52,600 nt of DNA, taken from the NCBI GenBank assembly GCA_947570625.1, contig CANOUP010000012.1, positions 1 through 52,600 on the forward strand, read 5' to 3'. Below the pieces are notes generated by a model, which had not been told where the DNA came from, did no database searches, and was given only the letters and a program-made list of their open reading frames with translations. Positions 29,350-48,151 of the stretch are shown in pieces. Made by a program: the position numbers and the translations under genes. How positions within the stretch are numbered: position 1 is the first letter of the stretch; every line of letters starts with the position of its first letter. The stretch comes from an uncultured Clostridia bacterium. Lineage in GTDB: Bacteria; Bacillota; Clostridia; Christensenellales; Borkfalkiaceae.

Positions 29350-31143
29350 TTAAAGTTCTACGACCACCGGCACGATTAACGGCGACTGTTTGGTCTTTTT
29401 CATCAAATAGTTTCTAAGACTGCGCTTTATTACGCGCTTCAACTCGTCGATTGTTCCGCGCGCCAAATCGTAACTTTCGATTGTACGTAGAATAACCTCG
29501 CGTATTTCTTTATTATAGTCGCGGTGGAAGTCGAACACGAAACCGCGGGAATTGATTGCGGGCTCGCCGACAACTTCACCGCCAGAAACGGCGACGGACA
29601 CGATAAACAGCCCCTCTTCCGAAAGCTGGCGCCTGTCCTCTATGACCATACTCGCCTTTTCGTCCTCTATGCCCTCCCCGTCGATAAGGCGGGAACCCGC
29701 CTGAACGTTTTCAACGCGCCTAATTCCGTTAGACGTAACCTCTATACAGTTGCCTATTTCGGGTATGAACGCGCGGTTTTCGGGCATACCCAGCTGTTCG
29801 GCGAGCTGTAAATGCTTTTTAAGGTGTCTGTACTCGCCGTGCACGGGTATGAAATATTTGGGCTTTAACAGGGTGTGCATTATTTTATGCTCTTCCTGAC
29901 AGGCGTGACCTGATACGTGTATCTTTTCAAGACTTTCGTAAACGACGTCAGCGCCCCTTCTGTAAAGGTTGTTTATTACCCTGTACACAAGTTTTTCGTT
30001 GCCGGGAATAGGCGAAGCCGAAATAATGACAGTGTCGTTTTTGCCCACGGTGACCTGCGGATTATCGCCGTTTGCCATTCTCGTAAGCGCGCTCATCGGT
30101 TCGCCCTGACTGCCCGTCGATACTACGACAAGTTCGCTGTCCTTTAAATTTTTGGTCTTGCTTATATCGACCAGAACGCCGTCCGGGATTTTTATTTCGC
30201 CTATCTTTTCGGCGGCTTCTACGACGTTGAGCATACTTCTGCCCGAAAGCGCGGCCTTGCGCCCGTACTTTGCGGCCAGGTCGATTATCTGTTGAAGGCG
30301 GTGCACGTTGGAAGCGAACGTCGCAACGATAAGCCTTCTGTCGGCGTTTTCTGAAAACAGCCTGTCAAGCGTCGTGCCAACGACGGTTTCGCTCATCGTA
30401 AAGCCCGCGCGCTCGATATTAGTGCTTTCGCCCATATATAAAAGAACGCCCGAAGTGCCAGTTTCCGATATGGTTTTAAGGTCGATAGGTTCGCCCGCGA
30501 CAGGCGTCAAATCGATTTTGAAATCTCCGCTGTGGAAGATTACTCCCTGCGGGGTTTCTATTGAAAACGCAAGCGAGCCCGCTATGGAGTGGTTTACGTT
30601 TACGGGATGAATTTTGAAACAGCCCATCTGTACGGTATGTCCGGGCGCAATGGTTATCAGCTTCGCGTCGTTTATGCGGTGCTCCCTGAGCTTGTTGTCG
30701 ACGAGCGCAAGCGTAAGCTTGGTTCCCGCGACGGGTATTTTAAGCTCCTTTAAAAGATAGGGCACTCCGCCGATATGGTCCTCGTGTCCGTGCGTGAGTA
30801 TCACACCGCGGACTTTGGATTTATTTTCGATAAGGTAGGTGATATCGGGCACGATTAAATCGAAGCCCGGCGTTTCGTCCGTGGGGAATATCGCGCCCGC
30901 GTCGATGATGATTATATCGTCCCCGCATTCAAGCGCCGTCATATTTTTGCCTATCTCGCCCACGCCGCCGAGAAACACTATTCTCACAGGCGGAATTTTT
31001 CTTTTAACGCGCTTTACGTTCTTCAATACCGGCGCGCGTTCGGGCGTTTTTTCAGTAAATTTACGCTTGTCCCCGCCTTTTCTCGAAGGCGGACGGCGCA
31101 TTTTGCCCCTGTTTGTCGTTTTGTTGTTTTCGTTGTTTTCCAC
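29350..31143 (-). CDS. rnj: Ribonuclease J
   Basis: 597 residues from the GTG at 31143; this start has AGGAG six bases before it, whereas the ATG seven codons upstream has none. Metallo-beta-lactamase/beta-CASP exo/endonuclease for mRNA decay and rRNA maturation. Metal motif HGHEDH, then SGDFK, STGSQGEP and the C-terminal HVSGHACQEE-type motif; C-terminal dimerisation domain present. A basic, Lys/Arg-rich N-terminal tail of about 50 residues precedes the catalytic core, as in some clostridial homologues. It follows the giant repeat gene, separated by a hairpin, and leads trmR-trhP-aroA. Confidence 0.95.
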   Translation of the reverse strand: MENNENNKTTNRGKMRRPPSRKGGDKRKFTEKTPERAPVLKNVKRVKRKIPPVRIVFLGGVGEIGKNMTALECGDDIIIIDAGAIFPTDETPGFDLIVPDITYLIENKSKVRGVILTHGHEDHIGGVPYLLKELKIPVAGTKLTLALVDNKLREHRINDAKLITIAPGHTVQMGCFKIHPVNVNHSIAGSLAFSIETPQGVIFHSGDFKIDLTPVAGEPIDLKTISETGTSGVLLYMGESTNIERAGFTMSETVVGTTLDRLFSENADRRLIVATFASNVHRLQQIIDLAAKYGRKAALSGRSMLNVVEAAEKIGEIKIPDGVLVDISKTKNLKDSELVVVSTGSQGEPMSALTRMANGDNPQVTVGKNDTVIISASPIPGNEKLVYRVINNLYRRGADVVYESLEKIHVSGHACQEEHKIMHTLLKPKYFIPVHGEYRHLKKHLQLAEQLGMPENRAFIPEIGNCIEVTSNGIRRVENVQAGSRLIDGEGIEDEKASMVIEDRRQLSEEGLFIVSVAVSGGEVVGEPAINSRGFVFDFHRDYNKEIREVILRTIESYDLARGTIDELKRVIKRSLRNYLMKKTKQSPLIVPVVVEL

Positions 31144-31175
31144 TTTAATCTCCTGTCGGGTCATTCACATTAAAC

Positions 31176-31201
31176 GGGGGTTGATGAAAAAATCAACCCC
31201 C
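31176..31201 (-). terminator. Hairpin between the giant gene and RNase J
   Basis: Perfect 10-bp stem GGGGGTTGAT/ATCAACCCCC with a 6-nt loop, 11 nt past the giant gene's stop. Only three T follow on the minus strand, so it may be a partial terminator or an mRNA 3'-end stabiliser in front of rnj. Confidence 0.5.
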
Positions 31202-31212
31202 ATCTTCCTTAG

Positions 31213-34200
31213 TTATTTCTTTCTTACGTCCTTTACAAGACCGTCGTCGATAAGTTCTTCGATAGTTTCGTAAGGATACATCGACGCATAGTCGCGGTCG
31301 GGAATTTCTCTCTTTTCGCCGTTGCGCTTAGCAAGCATTTCGTCGATGAGCCTTATAGCCTTTCTCACGCCGAGGGCGCTCTTCACCTTTACCATCATAG
31401 GCGTGCCCGCTACGGACTTGTTGTCCGAAACGTCGAGGTGGTGATATACGGAAGTCTTGTATTCGTTGGGGTCAAGCGCGAGGTATAAGCAAAGCGTTTT
31501 ACCGCGTATCTTCATTCTCGCAATCGTTTCCCTGCCCTTGTTGAAGCGTTCCGCACCCCACGCGACGTTGGAGTTGACCTTTCTGTAAGACAGAAGCGCA
31601 TGCTTGACTTCGCCGTAATACTGCTTGTAATCGTCGTTGGACTGAATAATTCTCGCAATGAAACTGCGCTTGAACTTCATCATATTTTCGAAGTCGACGC
31701 CGTCCCTGAACTCCGAGCCTTCGCCCGGCATAAGTTCGTCGTCGGAGAACGCGTCCATATCGAGCACGTCGATTAAGAAATCTTCCTCGTCGTCTTCCTC
31801 TTCCTCGTCTTCGCCGAACTCTTCCTCGGCGGGAACGGCGGGTTGAAGCACTGTTTCAACCTTTTCTTGAACGGGTTCTTCAACGGGTTCTTCCTCTATA
31901 TCTTCGACGATATCGCTTACCGTAACAAGCTCTTCCTCTTCTTCCTGCATTTCGGCAACGGCGGAAGGCTGTGAAACAGCCGCTTCTTCAACCGCTTTGA
32001 CGACAGCTCCGCTTGCAAGCATTGCCTTAATCTGGGCTACGTCCTCTTCGAATTTGGAATAGCGCGCTTCGCCGTCTTCCTCCGTGTTTGCGGTAAGATT
32101 GGAAATTTTCTCTTCCACGCTGTCAAGACGTTCGGAAACTCTCCTTTCGACTTCGCTTGCAACCGCTTCCGAAAGCGCCGTGTAGTCCTCTTCGATAACG
32201 CCTTCGCACTTCTCTTCGACTTCCTCTACGGCAACCGCCTCGTTTAATCTTGCAATGTTCTCTTCGAGGTTTTCAAGGCGGGAAGCGACCCTTCTCTCTA
32301 CTTCCGACGCGACCGCTTCCGAAAGCGCCGTGTAATCCTCTTCCGCAACTTCTTCCGCGCTATCCTCGTCCTCGCTTGCGGTTATAACTTCGTTTATTCT
32401 CGAAATGTTTTCTTCGACCGTTTCGAGGCGGGGCAGTACCCTTCTCTCAACTTCCGACGCAACCGCTTCCGAAAGCGCCGTGTAGTCTTCTTCCGCAACT
32501 TCTTCCGCGGTTTCCCCATCTTCGCTTGCGGTTATAGCTTCGTTTATTCTCGAAATGTTTTCTTCGACCGTTTCGAGGCGGGGAAGTACCCTTCTCTCTA
32601 CTTCCGACGCAACCGCTTCCGAAAGAGCCGTGTAGTCCTCTTCTATGATTTCTTCGGCGTCGCCGTACTCTTCGTACTCTGCCGAGGCAATCGCTTCGTT
32701 TATCTTTGCAATGTTCTCTTCTACCGTTTCAAGACGGGAAGCAACTCTCCTCTCGACTTCCGACGCGACTGCTTCCGAAAGCGCGGTGTAATCGCTTTCT
32801 TCGGCTTCTTCCTCGTCGCCGTATTCGACTTCTTCGGGAGAAACCGCCTCGTTTATTCTCGCGATGTTTTCGTCAACGCTATCGAAACGGTGCGCGACCC
32901 TCTTTTCGACTTCCGACGCGACCGCTTCCGAAAGCGCGGTGTAATCGCTTTCTTCGGCATCGTCGGCGGGCAGTGAACAGACGGTTTCGTTTATTCTTGC
33001 AATGCTTTCTTCAAGGCTGTCGAAGCGGTAGGAAATTCTCTTTTCCAACTCTTCGGCAACGGCTTCGGAAATGCCCGTGCGGTCCTCGTCCTCGCTGAGA
33101 ACTTCGTATTCCTCGTATTCGGGCACGTCGTCCTCGGCGGTCATTATATCGGTAAGGCTGAGTATGCTTGCCTGCATTCCGTCGAGTTTTTCGCTTATAC
33201 CGCGCTGAACTTCGCTTGCGACAATGAGCGAAAGGTTAGTAATCTTCGCGTCGGAGAATTCGGAAGCGGTTTCCTCCGCACCCGTGCGAACCGCATCGGT
33301 AATTCGCGAAATGCTCTCTTCCATACTGTCAAGACGGTAGGAAACGCGCTTTTCTACCTCGCTTGCTACTGCTTCGGAAAGAACGGAATAATCTTCTTCC
33401 TCCGCGCTTTCTTCCGCTTCGCCTTCTTCGGAAGCAATCATATCCGAAAGCCTTGCGATATTTTCCTCGATTCCCGTAAGTCGGGATACGACTTCCGTAA
33501 ACGGATCTTCCTCTTCGTACTCTTCTTCGGTCTGTCCGTCTTCGTATTCTTCCTCGTCGGCGGGCGCTATAAGCTCGGTAAGCTTGGCAATGTTTTCTTC
33601 CATACCGTCAAGGCGGGAAGCGACTCCCTTTTCGATTTCCGCGGCTACTACTTCGGAAAGAAGGGCGTACTCGTCGACGGTTTCCTCTTCTTCGGAAACC
33701 TCTTCGGTATATTCTTCATCATCCGCTTCGGCTTCATCCTCTTCGGGGGTCATAAGCTCTGTGAGCTTGGCAATATTTTCTTCAATGCCTTCGAGGCGTT
33801 CGGAAACTCTTCTCTCGACCTCGCCGGCGACAGCCTCGGAAAGTTCGGTGTAACTTCCGTCCTCTTCCTCTGTTTCGTCTTCCGCGCTCTCGCTTTCTCC
33901 GGAAAGTTCAAGCTCTTCCTCTTCCGCTTCTTCGGAAGCGAGGTAATCAGCGATTTTAGCTACATTCTCCTCAACGCCCGCAAGACGCGCGCCGACTTTT
34001 TCGAGTTCGGCGGTCAGATTTTCGGGAACTGCCGTATATCCTTCGGAAGGCTGAATATATTCTTCGCGTTCTTCCGCGTATTCTTCCTGCGTTTCTTCCG
34101 CGGAAAGAAGTTCGGTAATTCTGCCTATATTTTCTTCTACGCTGTCAAGACGTTCGGAAACTCTCTTTTCCACTTCGCTTGCGACTGCTTCGGAAAGGGC

Positions 34201-36759
34201 GGTGTAATCCTCTTCGATAATTTCTTCGGAGTAAGCTTCTTCCGCTTCTTCGGGAACGTCTATAAGCTCGGTAAGGCGGTTGAGTCCGTCCTCGACCTTG
34301 TCGAAACGGCTTGCCGTGCTCTTTTCAATCTCTTCCGCGACTATTTCGGAAATTCTCGAATAGTCGTCCTCGGGCCGCGCTTCCTCATTATCGACGGTGT
34401 TATCGTCAATGCGCGCGATTATATCCGAAAGCTTTTGAAGGTTTTCTTCAACCCTGTCGAAGCGCGCGTCCGTACCGCGGGTAATTTCTTCGGAAACGAG
34501 CTCGGTAATCCTTGCGATACCGTCGTCGTCTATTACTATGTCGTAGTCGTGGTCTTCCTGCGATTCGATAAGTCTTTCGGTTATCGTATTGCAAATGCCG
34601 TCACTGTCGACGGAGGGCGCGGGTATCGCGCTTACGACGTCTATGACTGCGCCCGTAATCTTATCGGTAATCTCTTCCGTATCGAATTCGGGCAGGTAGT
34701 TGGAAAGCACGGCCGCCGCCTTGTCGGCTATTGCGTCCTCGTTTATTCCCGCGACGGTAATCTTCTCGCTTATACGTTCCGCCATTTCCTCGTAATCGGG
34801 AGCGTTGACGGCGGCAAGGTCGAGCGCCTCGCGCAATTTGTCGGCGATTATGCCCGAAATCATATTATAGTCGAGGTTGTCCGCTATGCCCTTGGATATG
34901 GACGAACAGCCCTCGTCGTCTACGAGAATTTCAAAATCCTCGGCTTTGAGCGAACCGACTTTAAGCGAAATCGCGTCGGCAAGCTCTTCCTCGTCCACGT
35001 CGTAAGGCGTGTAGCTCTGCTGTACCGCGGTATTGCTTATCTTATCCGCAATGCGCTGTGCAAGCGCTTCCTCGTCGATTGACGCCGGAACGGATACGGC
35101 GGAAGCGAACACCTGCGGATTGTACGCGCCGAGTTTGCCGGCAATCTTTTCCGCAAGTTCTTCGCCGTCGATGTCGTTTACGACAGCGGGCGCAAGTTCT
35201 TTCTGTGCTTCGGAAGAGTTGAGCCTTTGGGCAATCTTATCCGCAAGCTCGTCGCTGTCTATATCGGCGGCGGGCGTAATCTCCTCGGCGGGGTTGAGTT
35301 CTGCAAGCCTTCCCGCGATTCTGTCCGCAAGCTCGGCTTCGTCGGGGAAGCTCTTCTCTTCGGGTCTGAGCTCGCAGACGCGCTCGGCAATCTTTTCGAC
35401 AAGCGCCTGCTCGTCGAATAAGGGAGCTTTTTCCGCGCTCTGCTTTTCGGCGTTTTCGCCGAGAATATCGGCAACCTGTTTAGCTATATAGTCAGCGTCG
35501 ACAGACACGTTTACGTTAGCGGGTTCGGGTTCGGGTATGACAATGCGGGACACCACTTTCGAAGCAATGTAATCTGCGTCGACGGAAACATTGACGTTGG
35601 GCGCTTCGGCTTCGGGAATTATAATCTGTTCCGCCACTCTCGAAGCGATGTAATCGGGCGAAATAACTTCGCGCGAGGATATGAGCGACGCAATCTTTTC
35701 CGCAAGCTTGTCGTAATCGATTTCCTTCTCTTCCCTGACGACCGTCTGGACGGGCGCGGGTATGGGCGCAACCGCAACCTGGGGCTGTTGACGGAATGCG
35801 GGCGCGTTCTTTCCCGACTCGTACGCGTACTGTTCTACGCGCATGGAAAGTATTTCGAACTTATCCGCAAGCATAGAGTGAGCGCTTTCGCTTCTCCTCA
35901 GCTGTTCGGATATACGGTTGAGCTTGTCGAAAACATCGGTAAAATCGTCGGAATCGCGGGTGACGACCTTTTCGGTAACCCTTTCGGATACTCTGCCCGA
36001 AAGCTCGGCATACGCGCGCTCGTTTTTCCGTATCTGGTCGGAAAGCGAATCGAGCTTTGTCATAACCGCCGTCAAATCGACGACCGCGGGCTGAACGGCA
36101 ACCGACGGCGAAACCGCGGGCTGTTCGGTGCGTTCGAGGGTATTAAGGCGGGTAGAAATAGCGTCGAGTTTGTCGAGTACGGACGTAAGGTCTACGGAGG
36201 GAGCTTCGCCCTTTTCCGAAGCGGGCACGTACGCACCGCTCGACGTGAATGCGGAGATTACGTCAAGCCTGTTGGACAGCTCGTTGTAAAGCTCGGTACT
36301 CCTTTTCCCGTGCTCTGCGATTTCCGTAAGTTTATCGGCTATGGTGGAATAGTTGTCCCCGCTCTTTTTGGTCTGTTCGGACACGTCGTTTAGCCTGTCC
36401 GCAAAACCCGTCATTGCGTCCTCGCGGACTTTTGCCTGTTCCGAAAGCTCGGTTATCTTTTCGGCAAGTCCCGCGTATATATTCTCGCTCTGTTTGGCGA
36501 GATACAAAAGCTCCTGTTTGAGCGCGGAATTTTCGCCTTGAAGCTGAGCGAACAGTTCGCTGTTCCTCGTTACGACGTCGGACGAGTCCATATTGCCCTT
36601 ACCGAAAAGGGCTATCGCCTCCTCGATTTTCGAAACGGCGATTCTGGTCTGTTCGACCAACTCCTCCTGTCTGGCGGCAAGATTGTGCGTATTTTTGATT
36701 ATAATGTCCGCTTTCTTGGGACCGCCCGCGTAATCGGGTTCGTTTTTATCGTATGGCAT
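31213..36759 (-). CDS. Giant acidic repeat protein (1848 aa) with conserved C-terminal domain
   Basis: I recognise no named function. Four regions are seen. Residues 1-345: coiled-coil-prone, heptad-like, with repeating ADKLTEIAE-type segments. About 345-740: roughly 15 short amphipathic repeats of the form EELADKIAxRL separated by Pro/Val/Asp-rich linkers. About 741-1558: 16 units of the pattern DYTALSEAVASEVERRV then RLETVEENIARINEAI, joined by Glu-rich spacers. About 1560-1690: a very acidic linker. Residues 1690-1848: a globular basic domain (SFIARIIQS, IRGKTLCLYLALDP) that I recall in other uncharacterised clostridial proteins. No signal peptide or membrane helix, so it is probably cytoplasmic, perhaps scaffold-like. 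GAGGTGGAG precedes the ATG. Its role is not known. Confidence 0.85.
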   Translation of the reverse strand: MPYDKNEPDYAGGPKKADIIIKNTHNLAARQEELVEQTRIAVSKIEEAIALFGKGNMDSSDVVTRNSELFAQLQGENSALKQELLYLAKQSENIYAGLAEKITELSEQAKVREDAMTGFADRLNDVSEQTKKSGDNYSTIADKLTEIAEHGKRSTELYNELSNRLDVISAFTSSGAYVPASEKGEAPSVDLTSVLDKLDAISTRLNTLERTEQPAVSPSVAVQPAVVDLTAVMTKLDSLSDQIRKNERAYAELSGRVSERVTEKVVTRDSDDFTDVFDKLNRISEQLRRSESAHSMLADKFEILSMRVEQYAYESGKNAPAFRQQPQVAVAPIPAPVQTVVREEKEIDYDKLAEKIASLISSREVISPDYIASRVAEQIIIPEAEAPNVNVSVDADYIASKVVSRIVIPEPEPANVNVSVDADYIAKQVADILGENAEKQSAEKAPLFDEQALVEKIAERVCELRPEEKSFPDEAELADRIAGRLAELNPAEEITPAADIDSDELADKIAQRLNSSEAQKELAPAVVNDIDGEELAEKIAGKLGAYNPQVFASAVSVPASIDEEALAQRIADKISNTAVQQSYTPYDVDEEELADAISLKVGSLKAEDFEILVDDEGCSSISKGIADNLDYNMISGIIADKLREALDLAAVNAPDYEEMAERISEKITVAGINEDAIADKAAAVLSNYLPEFDTEEITDKITGAVIDVVSAIPAPSVDSDGICNTITERLIESQEDHDYDIVIDDDGIARITELVSEEITRGTDARFDRVEENLQKLSDIIARIDDNTVDNEEARPEDDYSRISEIVAEEIEKSTASRFDKVEDGLNRLTELIDVPEEAEEAYSEEIIEEDYTALSEAVASEVEKRVSERLDSVEENIGRITELLSAEETQEEYAEEREEYIQPSEGYTAVPENLTAELEKVGARLAGVEENVAKIADYLASEEAEEEELELSGESESAEDETEEEDGSYTELSEAVAGEVERRVSERLEGIEENIAKLTELMTPEEDEAEADDEEYTEEVSEEEETVDEYALLSEVVAAEIEKGVASRLDGMEENIAKLTELIAPADEEEYEDGQTEEEYEEEDPFTEVVSRLTGIEENIARLSDMIASEEGEAEESAEEEDYSVLSEAVASEVEKRVSYRLDSMEESISRITDAVRTGAEETASEFSDAKITNLSLIVASEVQRGISEKLDGMQASILSLTDIMTAEDDVPEYEEYEVLSEDEDRTGISEAVAEELEKRISYRFDSLEESIARINETVCSLPADDAEESDYTALSEAVASEVEKRVAHRFDSVDENIARINEAVSPEEVEYGDEEEAEESDYTALSEAVASEVERRVASRLETVEENIAKINEAIASAEYEEYGDAEEIIEEDYTALSEAVASEVERRVLPRLETVEENISRINEAITASEDGETAEEVAEEDYTALSEAVASEVERRVLPRLETVEENISRINEVITASEDEDSAEEVAEEDYTALSEAVASEVERRVASRLENLEENIARLNEAVAVEEVEEKCEGVIEEDYTALSEAVASEVERRVSERLDSVEEKISNLTANTEEDGEARYSKFEEDVAQIKAMLASGAVVKAVEEAAVSQPSAVAEMQEEEEELVTVSDIVEDIEEEPVEEPVQEKVETVLQPAVPAEEEFGEDEEEEDDEEDFLIDVLDMDAFSDDELMPGEGSEFRDGVDFENMMKFKRSFIARIIQSNDDYKQYYGEVKHALLSYRKVNSNVAWGAERFNKGRETIARMKIRGKTLCLYLALDPNEYKTSVYHHLDVSDNKSVAGTPMMVKVKSALGVRKAIRLIDEMLAKRNGEKREIPDRDYASMYPYETIEELIDDGLVKDVRKK
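32085..34540 (-). repeat. Tandem repeat array of 16 coiled-coil units inside the giant gene
   Basis: Sixteen degenerate units of about 36 conserved residues plus acidic spacers. The 3'-proximal ones (32085 to about 32970) have a near-constant period of 150 bp; segments starting at 32341 and 32491 differ at only about 10 of 150 bases by eye, pointing to recent duplication. Units farther 5' are older and one (near 33470) is truncated. Confidence 0.85.
34540..35720 (-). repeat. Older short-helix repeats (ELADKIA type) inside the giant gene
   Basis: About 15 diverged copies of a 10-12 residue amphipathic helix such as ELADKIAQRL, ELAEKIAGKL, YIASRVAEQI and ALAQRIADKI, separated by linkers of 10-40 residues. 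Two linkers repeat almost exactly (NVNVSVDADYIA). Confidence 0.7.
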
Positions 36760-36791: not shown

Positions 36792-36820
36792 ATTATATAG
36801 TTTACACCAAATTATATTAA
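36792..36820 (-). promoter_or_regulatory. Possible promoter of the giant gene
   Basis: Minus strand: -35 TTAATA (36815-36820, 4 of 6), 17-bp spacer, -10 TATAAT (36792-36797), in a very AT-rich stretch. Confidence 0.45.
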
Positions 36821-36993
36821 AAGTAAATATAATTATTAATTTTTTTTGGCGTTTTTTCAAAATTTTTCCCGTTAACTCCGACATAGTACGGGGTGTAGCA
36901 AAATTTTCCAACAAAAAAACAGCCGAATAAAAAGACTTTGCGCGGTTCATAATATTTTAAAAATAAATATTTGCCGACACGGAGGATAAACTT

Positions 36994-37158
36994 ATGGCAA
37001 AGAAAAAAATAGTTAAACTTACCGACGAACAGTATATAAAATATATAACCAGCCTTAAAAACGACCCCGCTCTTTACGGCGCGGACGGTGAAATGACAGT
37101 ACCCGACAGCATAAAACCCGCCGATAACCGCAATACAAACCGCAGGGGCGAAGATTAA
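36994..37158 (+). CDS. Small protein of 54 residues next to spoIVA
   Basis: ATG at 36994 with a strong GGAGGATAAACTT site before it; stop TAA at 37156. The product begins MAKKKIVKLTDEQYIKYI, is hydrophilic, Lys-rich at the start and Asn/Arg-rich at the end, and has no cysteine or membrane segment. The good ribosome site and sensible codon use support a real gene. It is convergent with spoIVA and shares its terminator. It does not look like an alpha/beta-type SASP. The 230 bases upstream (36760-36993) are AT-rich and hold no other gene that I can see; TTGCGC near 36940 may be part of a promoter. Confidence 0.6.
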   Translation: MAKKKIVKLTDEQYIKYITSLKNDPALYGADGEMTVPDSIKPADNRNTNRRGED

Positions 37159-37164
37159 AAATAC

Positions 37165-37192
37165 GGGCGGACGCAGTACGTTGCGTCCGCCC
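37165..37192. terminator. Terminator between the small gene and spoIVA
   Basis: Perfect 11-bp stem GGGCGGACGCA/TGCGTCCGCCC with a 6-nt loop between convergent genes. T-runs are short on both sides. Confidence 0.7.
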
Positions 37193-37207: not shown

Positions 37208-38683
37208 TTACAGTAAAATGCAGATAACTCCTCCGCGCCCCTCGTTGACTATTCTGGTTATGGCGCGGCGCATTTTCGCCTTCGTGTCGTCGTGCATACC
37301 CGACACCTTGCCCGAAAGCCCTTCCTTGACCATACCGCGCAGGGACTTGCCGAACACGTTGGTTTCCCACATGCCGTCGGGGTTGGTTTCGAAGCCGTTC
37401 ATCATACCCTGAACAATGCCTTCGCTCTGCCTTGCACTGCCCATTATGGGGCTGACTTCGCCCGTTACGTCTATCTTAACTATATGATAGCTGGGCGCAG
37501 TGGCTTTTAGCTTAATGCCCATCGTACCGCCCTTATTTACGACCTGGGGCTGTTCGAGCGTCATATCCTCGTCGTCGGGCTGGACTATGCCGTAGCCGTT
37601 GACCCTTGCGCATTCGAGGGCGTCCTTTATTTTGTCGTAACCCTTCTTAGCTTCGGCTGTTCCGCGGACGTAGCGCATAAGCGTGCCCTCGTCGGAAATT
37701 TTGTCGCCCGCGATTTCGGACAGCATATCGAAGAAAATTCCGTCGGCGGGACAGGCGGTTATCTGCGCCTTTCCGTCGGAAAGATTTAAGCTGACGCTTC
37801 CCTCTTCCTTCCAGTATGCGCAGTCCGCGAACATTCCGTCGAACGCGGAGCAGTCTTTCATTTTACATATCTTGGGCGCGACCGCGCGCACTTTGCCGAA
37901 CAGTTCGGAAATAGCGGAACAGTCGGGCGAAAGGTATCTCATCCAGTCGGGAACGGAAATATCGAAAGACGTTACGGGGAATTCGAACAGCACCGCTTTG
38001 AGTATGTTCATAAGTCCTTCCGCATCTAATTTTTCGCAGTTGACGGCTATTACCGTATTCGAATATTTGGCTTCGAGCTCTTCTTTAAGCGCCTTTGAAG
38101 CGCCCGACGAAGGGTCGGCGCAGTTGAGCACTATGACGAAAGGTTTGCCTATTTCTTTAAGGCTGTTTACAGTGCGCTCTTCCGCCTTTACGTAGCCCTG
38201 TCTGGGAATTTCCGCAATGCTTCCGTCCGTCGTCACGAGTATCCCTATCGTGGAGTGCTCCCTTATAACCCGCTCAGTGCCCAGCTCCGCCGCCTTCTCG
38301 AAGGGAAGAGGTTCGCTACTCCATGGGGTGTTTACGAGGCGGGGCTTGCCGTCCTCTTCAAAGCCCGAAGCGCCTTCGGTTATAAAACCGACGCAGTCGA
38401 CGAGTCTGACGTTCGCCGAAGCGTTTTCAATCTTTACTTCCGCCGCCTTCGCGGGTACGAACTTAGGTTCCGTCGTCATTACGATTTTACCCGAAGCGGA
38501 CTGTGGAAGTTCGTCGGTCATTACCGTCTTGGCGTTGCCGTCCGCGACGTTGGGAATAACCAGCTCGGTCATAAATTTTTTGATAAGTGTGGACTTGCCC
38601 GTTCTGACAGGTCCGACTACGCCAATATAAATATCTCCGCCGCTCCGTCCGGCAATGTCTTCGTAAACGTTGTAATCAACCAT
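37208..38683 (-). CDS. spoIVA: Stage IV sporulation protein A (spore coat ATPase)
   Basis: 491 residues, the typical length of SpoIVA (492 in Bacillus). It is a TRAFAC-class ATPase that polymerises on the forespore surface as the base layer of the coat. Walker A GPVRTGKST lies at 24-32, with N-terminus YEDIAGRSGGDIYIGVVG; the DCVGF segment fits Walker B, and VLNCADP is an NKxD-like element. The C-terminal end GRGGVICILL matches the membrane-docking tail read by SpoVM. GGAGGCGG precedes the ATG. A sigma-E promoter is expected, but I could not read one with confidence. With spoIIE it indicates an endospore-forming lineage. Confidence 0.95.
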   Translation of the reverse strand: MVDYNVYEDIAGRSGGDIYIGVVGPVRTGKSTLIKKFMTELVIPNVADGNAKTVMTDELPQSASGKIVMTTEPKFVPAKAAEVKIENASANVRLVDCVGFITEGASGFEEDGKPRLVNTPWSSEPLPFEKAAELGTERVIREHSTIGILVTTDGSIAEIPRQGYVKAEERTVNSLKEIGKPFVIVLNCADPSSGASKALKEELEAKYSNTVIAVNCEKLDAEGLMNILKAVLFEFPVTSFDISVPDWMRYLSPDCSAISELFGKVRAVAPKICKMKDCSAFDGMFADCAYWKEEGSVSLNLSDGKAQITACPADGIFFDMLSEIAGDKISDEGTLMRYVRGTAEAKKGYDKIKDALECARVNGYGIVQPDDEDMTLEQPQVVNKGGTMGIKLKATAPSYHIVKIDVTGEVSPIMGSARQSEGIVQGMMNGFETNPDGMWETNVFGKSLRGMVKEGLSGKVSGMHDDTKAKMRRAITRIVNEGRGGVICILL

Positions 38684-48095: not shown

Positions 48096-48110
48096 CAAAC
48101 TGCGTGCAAA

Positions 48111-48145
48111 ATAAAGCGCGCTTTTTCAAAAAAAGCGCGCTTTAT
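48111..48145 (-). terminator. Terminator after the DUF378 gene
   Basis: 16-bp perfect stem (48111-48126 / 48130-48145) with a 3-nt loop; TTTATTTTG closes the minus-strand end. It lies just upstream of the esterase operon promoter. Confidence 0.85.
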
Positions 48146-48151
48146 CATACG

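Follow-up and report, generated by a model that had tools for sequence, protein, structure and literature searches.

The window analysed here, 52,600 nt of contig CANOUP010000012.1 from an uncultured Clostridia bacterium of the family Borkfalkiaceae, contains a gene (hereafter X) for a long acidic coiled-coil protein that lies directly upstream of rnj, the gene for RNase J. The same arrangement was found in all 92 orthologues inspected (92/92), which represent four or more genera. The two ends of the protein are fixed and the arms between them are variable. We tentatively propose, at somewhat less than an even chance, that X is a soluble cytoplasmic scaffold or tether of the RNase J locus. X had been singled out in a preliminary description of the window made from its letters alone; that observation is correct, and stronger than originally put. 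The features of the locus are collected in Table 1.

Table 1. Gene X and its surroundings (positions in the window; residues are those of X).
Feature	Position	Strand	Remarks
rnj (RNase J), basic N-terminal tail	29350..31143	(-)	directly downstream of X
Hairpin, inverted repeat GGGGGTTGAT..ATCAACCCCC	31176..31201	(-)	between X and rnj, in most relatives
Gene X	31213..36759	(-)	ORF, ATG start; 1848-aa acidic coiled-coil protein
C-terminal DUF5655-like domain, the head (residues 1691-1848)	31213..31689	(-)	net charge +9; profile comparison
Acidic stretch preceding the head	31690..32073	(-)	residues 1601-1690: 44% D/E, net -38
Variable arm 2, 16-unit coiled-coil array, period about 50 aa	32074..34518	(-)	span from core to C-terminal domain varies
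150-bp unit, copy A of recent pair	32341..32490	(-)	10 differences in 150 bp relative to copy B
150-bp unit, copy B of recent pair	32491..32640	(-)	in-frame partner of copy A
Central conserved core (residues about 613-747)	34519..34923	(-)	anchor motifs in orthologues
Variable arm 1, ELADKIA-type short helices (residues about 340-612)	34924..35742	(-)	span from N motif to core varies
N-terminal module (residues 1-180), motifs KKADxIL and ELxYLAxQSExIY	36220..36759	(-)	motifs retained in most orthologues
Putative promoter-like sites ahead of X, three at 10/12 consensus positions	36792..36860	(-)	scan, sigma-70-like
Small ORF, 54 aa, between spoIVA and X	36994..37158	(+)	tblastn homologue in 43/81 loci, in 41 opposite to X
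Terminator-like hairpin between spoIVA and X	37165..37192	(.)	stem of 11-12 pairs, both strands
spoIVA	37208..38683	(-)	ORF; named from sequence

Architecture and predicted location of the X protein

The preliminary description placed two repeat families, about 15 ELADKIA helices and 16 coil units, in a single ORF, and both counts were reproduced. A unit HMM detected 15 coil units, to which one truncated unit near residue 1080 can be added by eye. About 16 ELADKIA-type helices were counted by eye between residues 345 and 760 (a strict regular expression finds 5). In each coil unit about 36 residues look helical and an acidic linker comes after them; the hydrophobic period averages 3.7 over the 15 units. 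The C-terminal domain had been called basic, and its net charge stands against one of -297 for the entire protein; residues 341-740, the region of arm 1, contribute -56. All X orthologues printed are acidic (18-29% D/E), and most of the printed sister-genus proteins contain, by eye, a Y-x3-QN-x2-IY-type motif. A variable arm in front of a fixed cytoplasmic head was rightly recognised at the outset, but the second arm, the core, the link to RNase J and the relation to DUF5655 were missed; there are two variable arms, separated in most species by a conserved third block.

No signal peptide and no transmembrane (TM) helix were found in the X of the window, whose maximum 19-residue hydropathy is 1.35, in agreement with the early preference for a cytoplasmic protein over an adhesin. 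The marks of a surface adhesin (signal peptide, anchor, TM helix) are absent from it, and an adhesin origin was dropped because the window protein has neither export signal nor anchor. A 19-residue stretch with a hydropathy of at least 1.6 occurs in 12/71 X orthologues (1.61-2.32). Since these values lie below those of the TM helices of paralogues (2.59-3.61), membrane contact is unlikely for these 12 as well. Judged by its sequence, X is probably cytoplasmic, soluble and not exported. A phage origin was also rejected: the sole confirmed relative from a viral collection (L154, IMGVR_UViG_3300032007_003637) is a surface-type protein with two head copies, and its contig may be host DNA or a prophage flank.

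The association of X with rnj

Among the close orthologues (L074-L149, 70-96% identical in the head and not individually assigned to genus), rnj is the next gene downstream in 71/71 loci with at least 700 nt of sequence after X. It also adjoins X in 4/4 more distant loci (L150-L153, 47-52% in the head) and in 17/17 best-scoring matches from three further genera in the family. Adjacency to an RNase gene across lineages, as expected of an RNase-associated scaffold, was thus found. No rnj was seen beside three lower-scoring matches (L284, L288 and L289). At L284 (3547-3978, genome G730) the head lies in a 659-aa frame that, by eye, starts like an ABC-transporter ATPase, either an unusual fusion or a frame artefact. 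The gap between X and rnj has a median of 93 nt (range 13-818) and is no longer than 150 nt in 56/75 loci; these values are lower bounds because the leftmost start codon was used. In the window, rnj likely starts with the GTG at 31143 rather than with the listed ATG at 31164, an AGGAG being located 7 nt before the GTG and comparable starts (MENN, MERE, LENQ) being present in relatives.

The RNase J encoded beside X carries an N-terminal tail with a net charge of +10 to +27 in the 65 loci compared; that of the window is K/R-rich, with +14 when counted from the listed ATG. The corresponding 65 X proteins range from -33 to -249. Such opposite charges suggest a special case of the RNase J scaffold, in which the acidic arms would bind the basic tail and thereby form a condensate or sequester RNase J. 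Consistent with this, a tail of 59-137 aa was present in 6/6 loci with a head upstream. The tails of 19 parsed loci with no head upstream were mostly at most 25 aa, the exceptions being a long tail of +24 in L233, which is of the same family, and a 55-aa tail of +5 (no motif was obtained in this survey for L227, L236, L239 and L247, and L226 was parsed wrongly). However, neither the charge nor the length of X correlates with the tail of RNase J (Spearman -0.03, p 0.83, and 0.19, p 0.12, respectively; n = 65). Moreover, a basic tail with no X upstream occurs in 13/15 loci parsed from a further set that was picked largely for long RNase J frames (here L258, L259, L261, L266 and L267 gave no motif), and one X-less tailed locus (L233/L268) belongs to the same family. 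Even the nearly armless X of about 337 aa has a tailed RNase J downstream. Matching of charge between the arms and the tail was rejected on these grounds, and a polyanionic partner of this kind is quite improbable. Several other families of the order also have K/R-rich RNase J tails, and many lack them.

A hairpin separates X from rnj (Table 1). Perfect stems of at least 8 bp were found in 53/75 X-rnj loci, compared with a mean of 1.1 and a maximum of 4 in 100 mononucleotide shuffles. If G-U pairs are allowed, 73/75 loci contain a stem, with 56 different 5' arms (a count with no shuffle control), and in some loci (e.g. L076, L083, L121) the best hairpin differs from the GGGGGTT element. A T-rich tail (at least 5 T in the 9 following bases) follows 41/73 of these hairpins, which could therefore be full terminators that split X from rnj. 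Gaps of tens of bases leave little room for a promoter, and for this reason we infer that X and rnj share a transcript which is partly terminated or processed; full termination at the hairpin, combined with an rnj promoter inside X, may also occur. The hairpin is possibly an attenuator or RNA-processing site linked to the control of RNase J. No match at the Rfam gathering threshold was found within the window. A short tandem repeat with the palindromic core AAAGCGCGCTTT is present elsewhere in the window, at 48107-48147.

The association of X with spoIVA

The preliminary description located X between spoIVA and the RNase J operon and judged a cytoplasmic or spore-associated scaffold more likely than an adhesin. 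The adjacency holds, but an opposed small ORF and a terminator-like hairpin set spoIVA apart, so that a spoIVA-X operon is unlikely. A shared operon with spoIVA, as might be expected of a sporulation protein, was not found, and the adjacency in relatives is loose and incomplete. Among the close orthologues with 1300 nt or more of sequence ahead of X, spoIVA was upstream in 36/54, at a distance of 440-3276 nt, and was not in the available upstream stretch of the other 18/54. It also lies upstream of X in one sister-genus locus (L286). The source organism itself plausibly sporulates: its genome contains a Spo0A_C match, and a published study (PMC11536998) discusses MAGs of the Borkfalkiaceae as potential sporulators. 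Only the neighbourhood ties X to sporulation. Against a spore role, the promoter-like sites ahead of X (13 in the scanned region, 5.7 expected) are sigma-70-like, the only type covered by the scan, and the rnj adjacency is both tighter and deeper than the link to spoIVA (71/71 compared with 36/54). A spore-coat or forespore scaffold expressed together with spoIVA is not supported, and is very unlikely.

Length variation and the repeat array

Lengths were measured between anchor motifs in the window and 80 further loci (81 rows), and arm and core lengths were taken only from rows in which both anchor motifs were detected. Two rows, L074 (181 aa; run of N) and L099 (157 aa; near a contig edge), were excluded from length claims, and eight are open at the 5' end (L076, L084, L101, L104, L113, L127, L142 and L149). 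In 81/81 rows the head runs to the C-terminus over 149-158 aa. Measured from the DDDGC-type to the DYDIVID-type motif, the core spans 93-163 aa where both are present. Across the orthologues with both anchors, arm 1 (N motif to core) ranges from 178 to 604 aa and arm 2 (core to C-terminal domain) from 115 to 980 aa. The 5'-complete close orthologues are 593 to 1848 aa long. An even shorter, rnj-adjacent X of about 337 aa was found in a genome of the same genus (G591); it comprises the N motif, about two short helices and a head 64% identical to that of the window, and both the core and the coil array are absent. Rnj-adjacent X within the genus thus extends over about five-fold in length, from about 337 to 1848 aa.

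The number of coil units is equally variable. The unit HMM built from the window, where it counts 15, found 8, 8, 7, 6 and 4 units in five near relatives and a single unit in thirteen others; in the remaining 62/81 frames, some of which are fragments and some of which are built from other unit types, none was detected. In L074, the sequence flanking the run of N contains at least 12 coil units. The repeat number is not fixed among the orthologues compared, which upholds the original reading of the array as variable. Unit types differ from lineage to lineage: the array of L097 (= L045), for example, is built of other units, and that of L075, which among relatives with a complete gene is the closest (95% identical in the head, 1715 aa, on the same contig as L034), is constructed differently. 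Given unit counts from 15 to none, together with these other unit types, the array is lineage-specific and, as far as the sequences tell, tolerated at widely differing lengths.

Tandem Repeats Finder reported a repeat with a period of 150 (4.2 copies, 80% matches, score 649) at 32159-32790. Within it lie the two units that had been described as an offset pair at 32341 and 32491 with about ten differences; both the 150-bp offset and the differences were confirmed, and the units are in frame. Their 102-bp cores are 96% identical, compared with 79-80% for the flanking next units, which points to a recent gain and supports the suggestion that the array has recently changed in length. The source assembly is a MAG (38 contigs, 1.72 Mb, 91.9% completeness) and L074, the closest relative (96% in the C-terminal domain), has a 100-base run of N inside its array, so the exact unit count in the window is uncertain. 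Units of the window are more alike among themselves (0.68) than across genomes (0.60). In four relatives units are more alike between genomes (0.80-0.85) than within, and in L075 the two are nearly equal. The nearest neighbour came from the unit's own genome for 16/47 units (shuffle mean 8.6, maximum 17). Strong within-genome homogenisation was rejected, as the effect is modest and lies inside the shuffle range.

The array may have grown by slippage in a near-neutral fashion, with only the N motif and the head being of consequence. This explanation, which is compatible with the other readings, fits the single unit of thirteen orthologues beside the 15 of the window, the natural version of about 337 aa and the differences in unit type between lineages. 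It is at odds with the preserved reading frame, the coil-like period of the units and the acidity of all printed orthologues, and we regard it as a possibility well short of even. The early notion of an adjustable spacer in front of a fixed head survives in that the array is variable and the head fixed and non-repetitive. The word adjustable does not: because a natural orthologue lacks both core and coil array, the length of the arms looks tolerated rather than tuned.

The head domain and its relation to DUF5655

That the protein has no recognised function, as first described, remains true of the databases searched. None of the Pfam or NCBIfam models scored the head above its cut-off. A PDB sequence search with the head returned no convincing relative, the best match (E 0.0038) being a designed repeat protein of which no individual stretch passed. 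A weak Pfam hint to YjbR (PF04237, E 0.032) was rejected, as its hhalign score of 12.6 is below the shuffle maximum of 19.9. No paper on X was found among the literature matches listed, which is not proof that none exists, and no paper using the word DUF5655 was found in the literature searched.

Run over 398 genomes of the phylum, our head profile (A1) gave only five weak hits (E 2.7e-5 to 9.6e-4) besides the own genome. These five are frames of about 300 aa that are DUF5655-like by eye, and three of them (L156, L159 and a locus in G072) exceed the Pfam cut-off. Comparison of the head with the DUF5655 relatives found by this profile using hhalign gave 97.1, 96.5 and 96.7% (scores 68.1, 61.4 and 63.1). 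The score of 63.1 compares with a maximum of 21.4 in 200 column shuffles and with 11.8 for a reversed profile. Six DUF5655 domains chosen by Pfam gave 94.3% and a score of 50.1 (shuffle maximum 23.8, n = 100); these had been extracted using an HMM of the first relatives, with a possible bias towards the first set, and L213, whose genome was already used via our own profile, was omitted. The alignments cover about 106-112 columns, along which the conserved blocks ([L]YLxLDP, RDV, EVRI-type strand, A..LI) succeed one another in the same order. We conclude from this profile-level homology that the head is a distant relative of Pfam DUF5655 (PF18899). Nevertheless, the Pfam model (curated cut-off 24 bits) matches neither X, its head nor 7 representative heads, none of the DUF5655 matches listed across 41 genomes is at a known head locus, and a plain HMM of the head family detects the Pfam-chosen sequences only weakly (best E 0.015). 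The head is therefore named DUF5655-like rather than a member. In the two DUF5655 relatives that were scanned, a weak NucS-like N-terminal match was found, and the DUF5655-type proteins at L157 and L159 adjoin type I restriction-modification genes, by eye from the translations.

Distribution and paralogues of the head

A close X head (70-100% identity) was found in 37/37 same-genus genomes including the own genome, some of which are only 67-80% complete, and profile matches in 10/10 and 19/19 same-genus genomes (sets that overlap each other and the 37). Beyond the genus, the head domain is widespread in the order: it is present in 136/151 genomes of the family and in 139/297 genomes drawn from the order (42/125 genera), often in multiple copies.

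All 19 of the 5'-complete paralogous proteins examined contain an N-terminal TM helix, with more K/R after the helix than before it in 18/19. The K/R-rich side of a TM helix is, by the positive-inside rule, the cytoplasmic one. The K/R excess would therefore place the head on the cytoplasmic side in the paralogues examined and, by analogy, the head of X would be cytoplasmic too. Three paralogues were scanned for Pfam partner domains, which are Big_3, Divergent InlB B-repeat and ribosomal L15/L27A-type. The last is in an own-genome paralogue (L002, 940-2511), where it is C-terminal (PF00828, E 2.3e-10) and combined with a TM helix and a DUF5655-like domain; L154 has the same combination by eye. 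At L067 (634-10234), a small TM protein follows each of two large surface-type repeat proteins (1705 and 940 aa), and one of these small proteins carries a DUF5655-like head.

The paralogues suggest another role for X, as the soluble member of a head-sharing set and a general cytoskeletal or envelope-linked scaffold that cross-links heads or a common ligand, its place beside rnj being incidental operon conservation. The breadth and multiplicity of the head in the order, the membrane anchors of every paralogue examined and the nature of the partner domains all favour it, as does the finding that two of the own genome's three head paralogues adjoin surface-type proteins. However, it leaves the rnj adjacency in 92/92 orthologues unexplained. 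Moreover, X heads of the genus are 64-95% identical to the window head and those of paralogues 22-44%, so that X forms a line of its own. On balance we regard such an envelope-linked role as rather unlikely.

A possible role at the RNase J locus

In the RNase J scaffold that we tentatively favour, the N-terminal coil of X would oligomerise the protein and the arms would hold its ends apart, wrapping them in negative charge. The partner bound by the DUF5655-like head would most likely belong to RNase J-dependent RNA turnover. A single transcript probably covers X and rnj, and the hairpin, by partly terminating or processing it, would set the ratio of the two products. Units of the array would be gained and lost through slippage or unequal exchange, the resulting length being tolerated and not tuned. 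The tight and deep synteny with rnj, and the fixed ends with variable arms, speak for the scaffold. Against it, neighbourhood is not interaction, the gap to rnj can reach 818 nt, the charge and length of X do not track the tail, tails occur without X, and spoIVA too is upstream of X in another genus (L286). Taken further, X would found a new class of separately encoded RNase J scaffold, in which a polyanionic coiled-coil rod with a DUF5655-like head organises mRNA decay in Borkfalkiaceae and the length of the rod evolves almost freely; in this full form we consider the proposal unlikely.

These data give an apparently undescribed protein, present in every searched genome of an uncultured gut genus, a testable place at the RNase J locus, and they link a widespread cytoplasmic domain without a name to DUF5655. 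The orthologues moreover constitute a natural length series, with one conserved pair of ends, in which to ask whether the length of a scaffold matters in RNA decay.

Lastly, X can be compared with known systems. Repeat surface adhesins of Gram-positive bacteria contain long tandem repeats with lineage-specific copy number. X shares the long variable repeats, but in the window it has none of their export or membrane signals. The RNase J of Helicobacter pylori has a 132-residue N-terminal extension that is predicted to be disordered and is a possible driver of condensates (PMC10700544); this organism belongs to another phylum, and the relevant passages of that paper mention no X-like gene. The C-terminal scaffold of RNase E, with its BR-bodies, is, in the published passages on it, a disordered scaffold tied to a major RNase, and in this respect resembles X. 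In RNase E, however, the scaffold is within the RNase chain, whereas X is a separate upstream gene with coiled-coil repeats and a putative partner. X is assembled from known kinds of parts.
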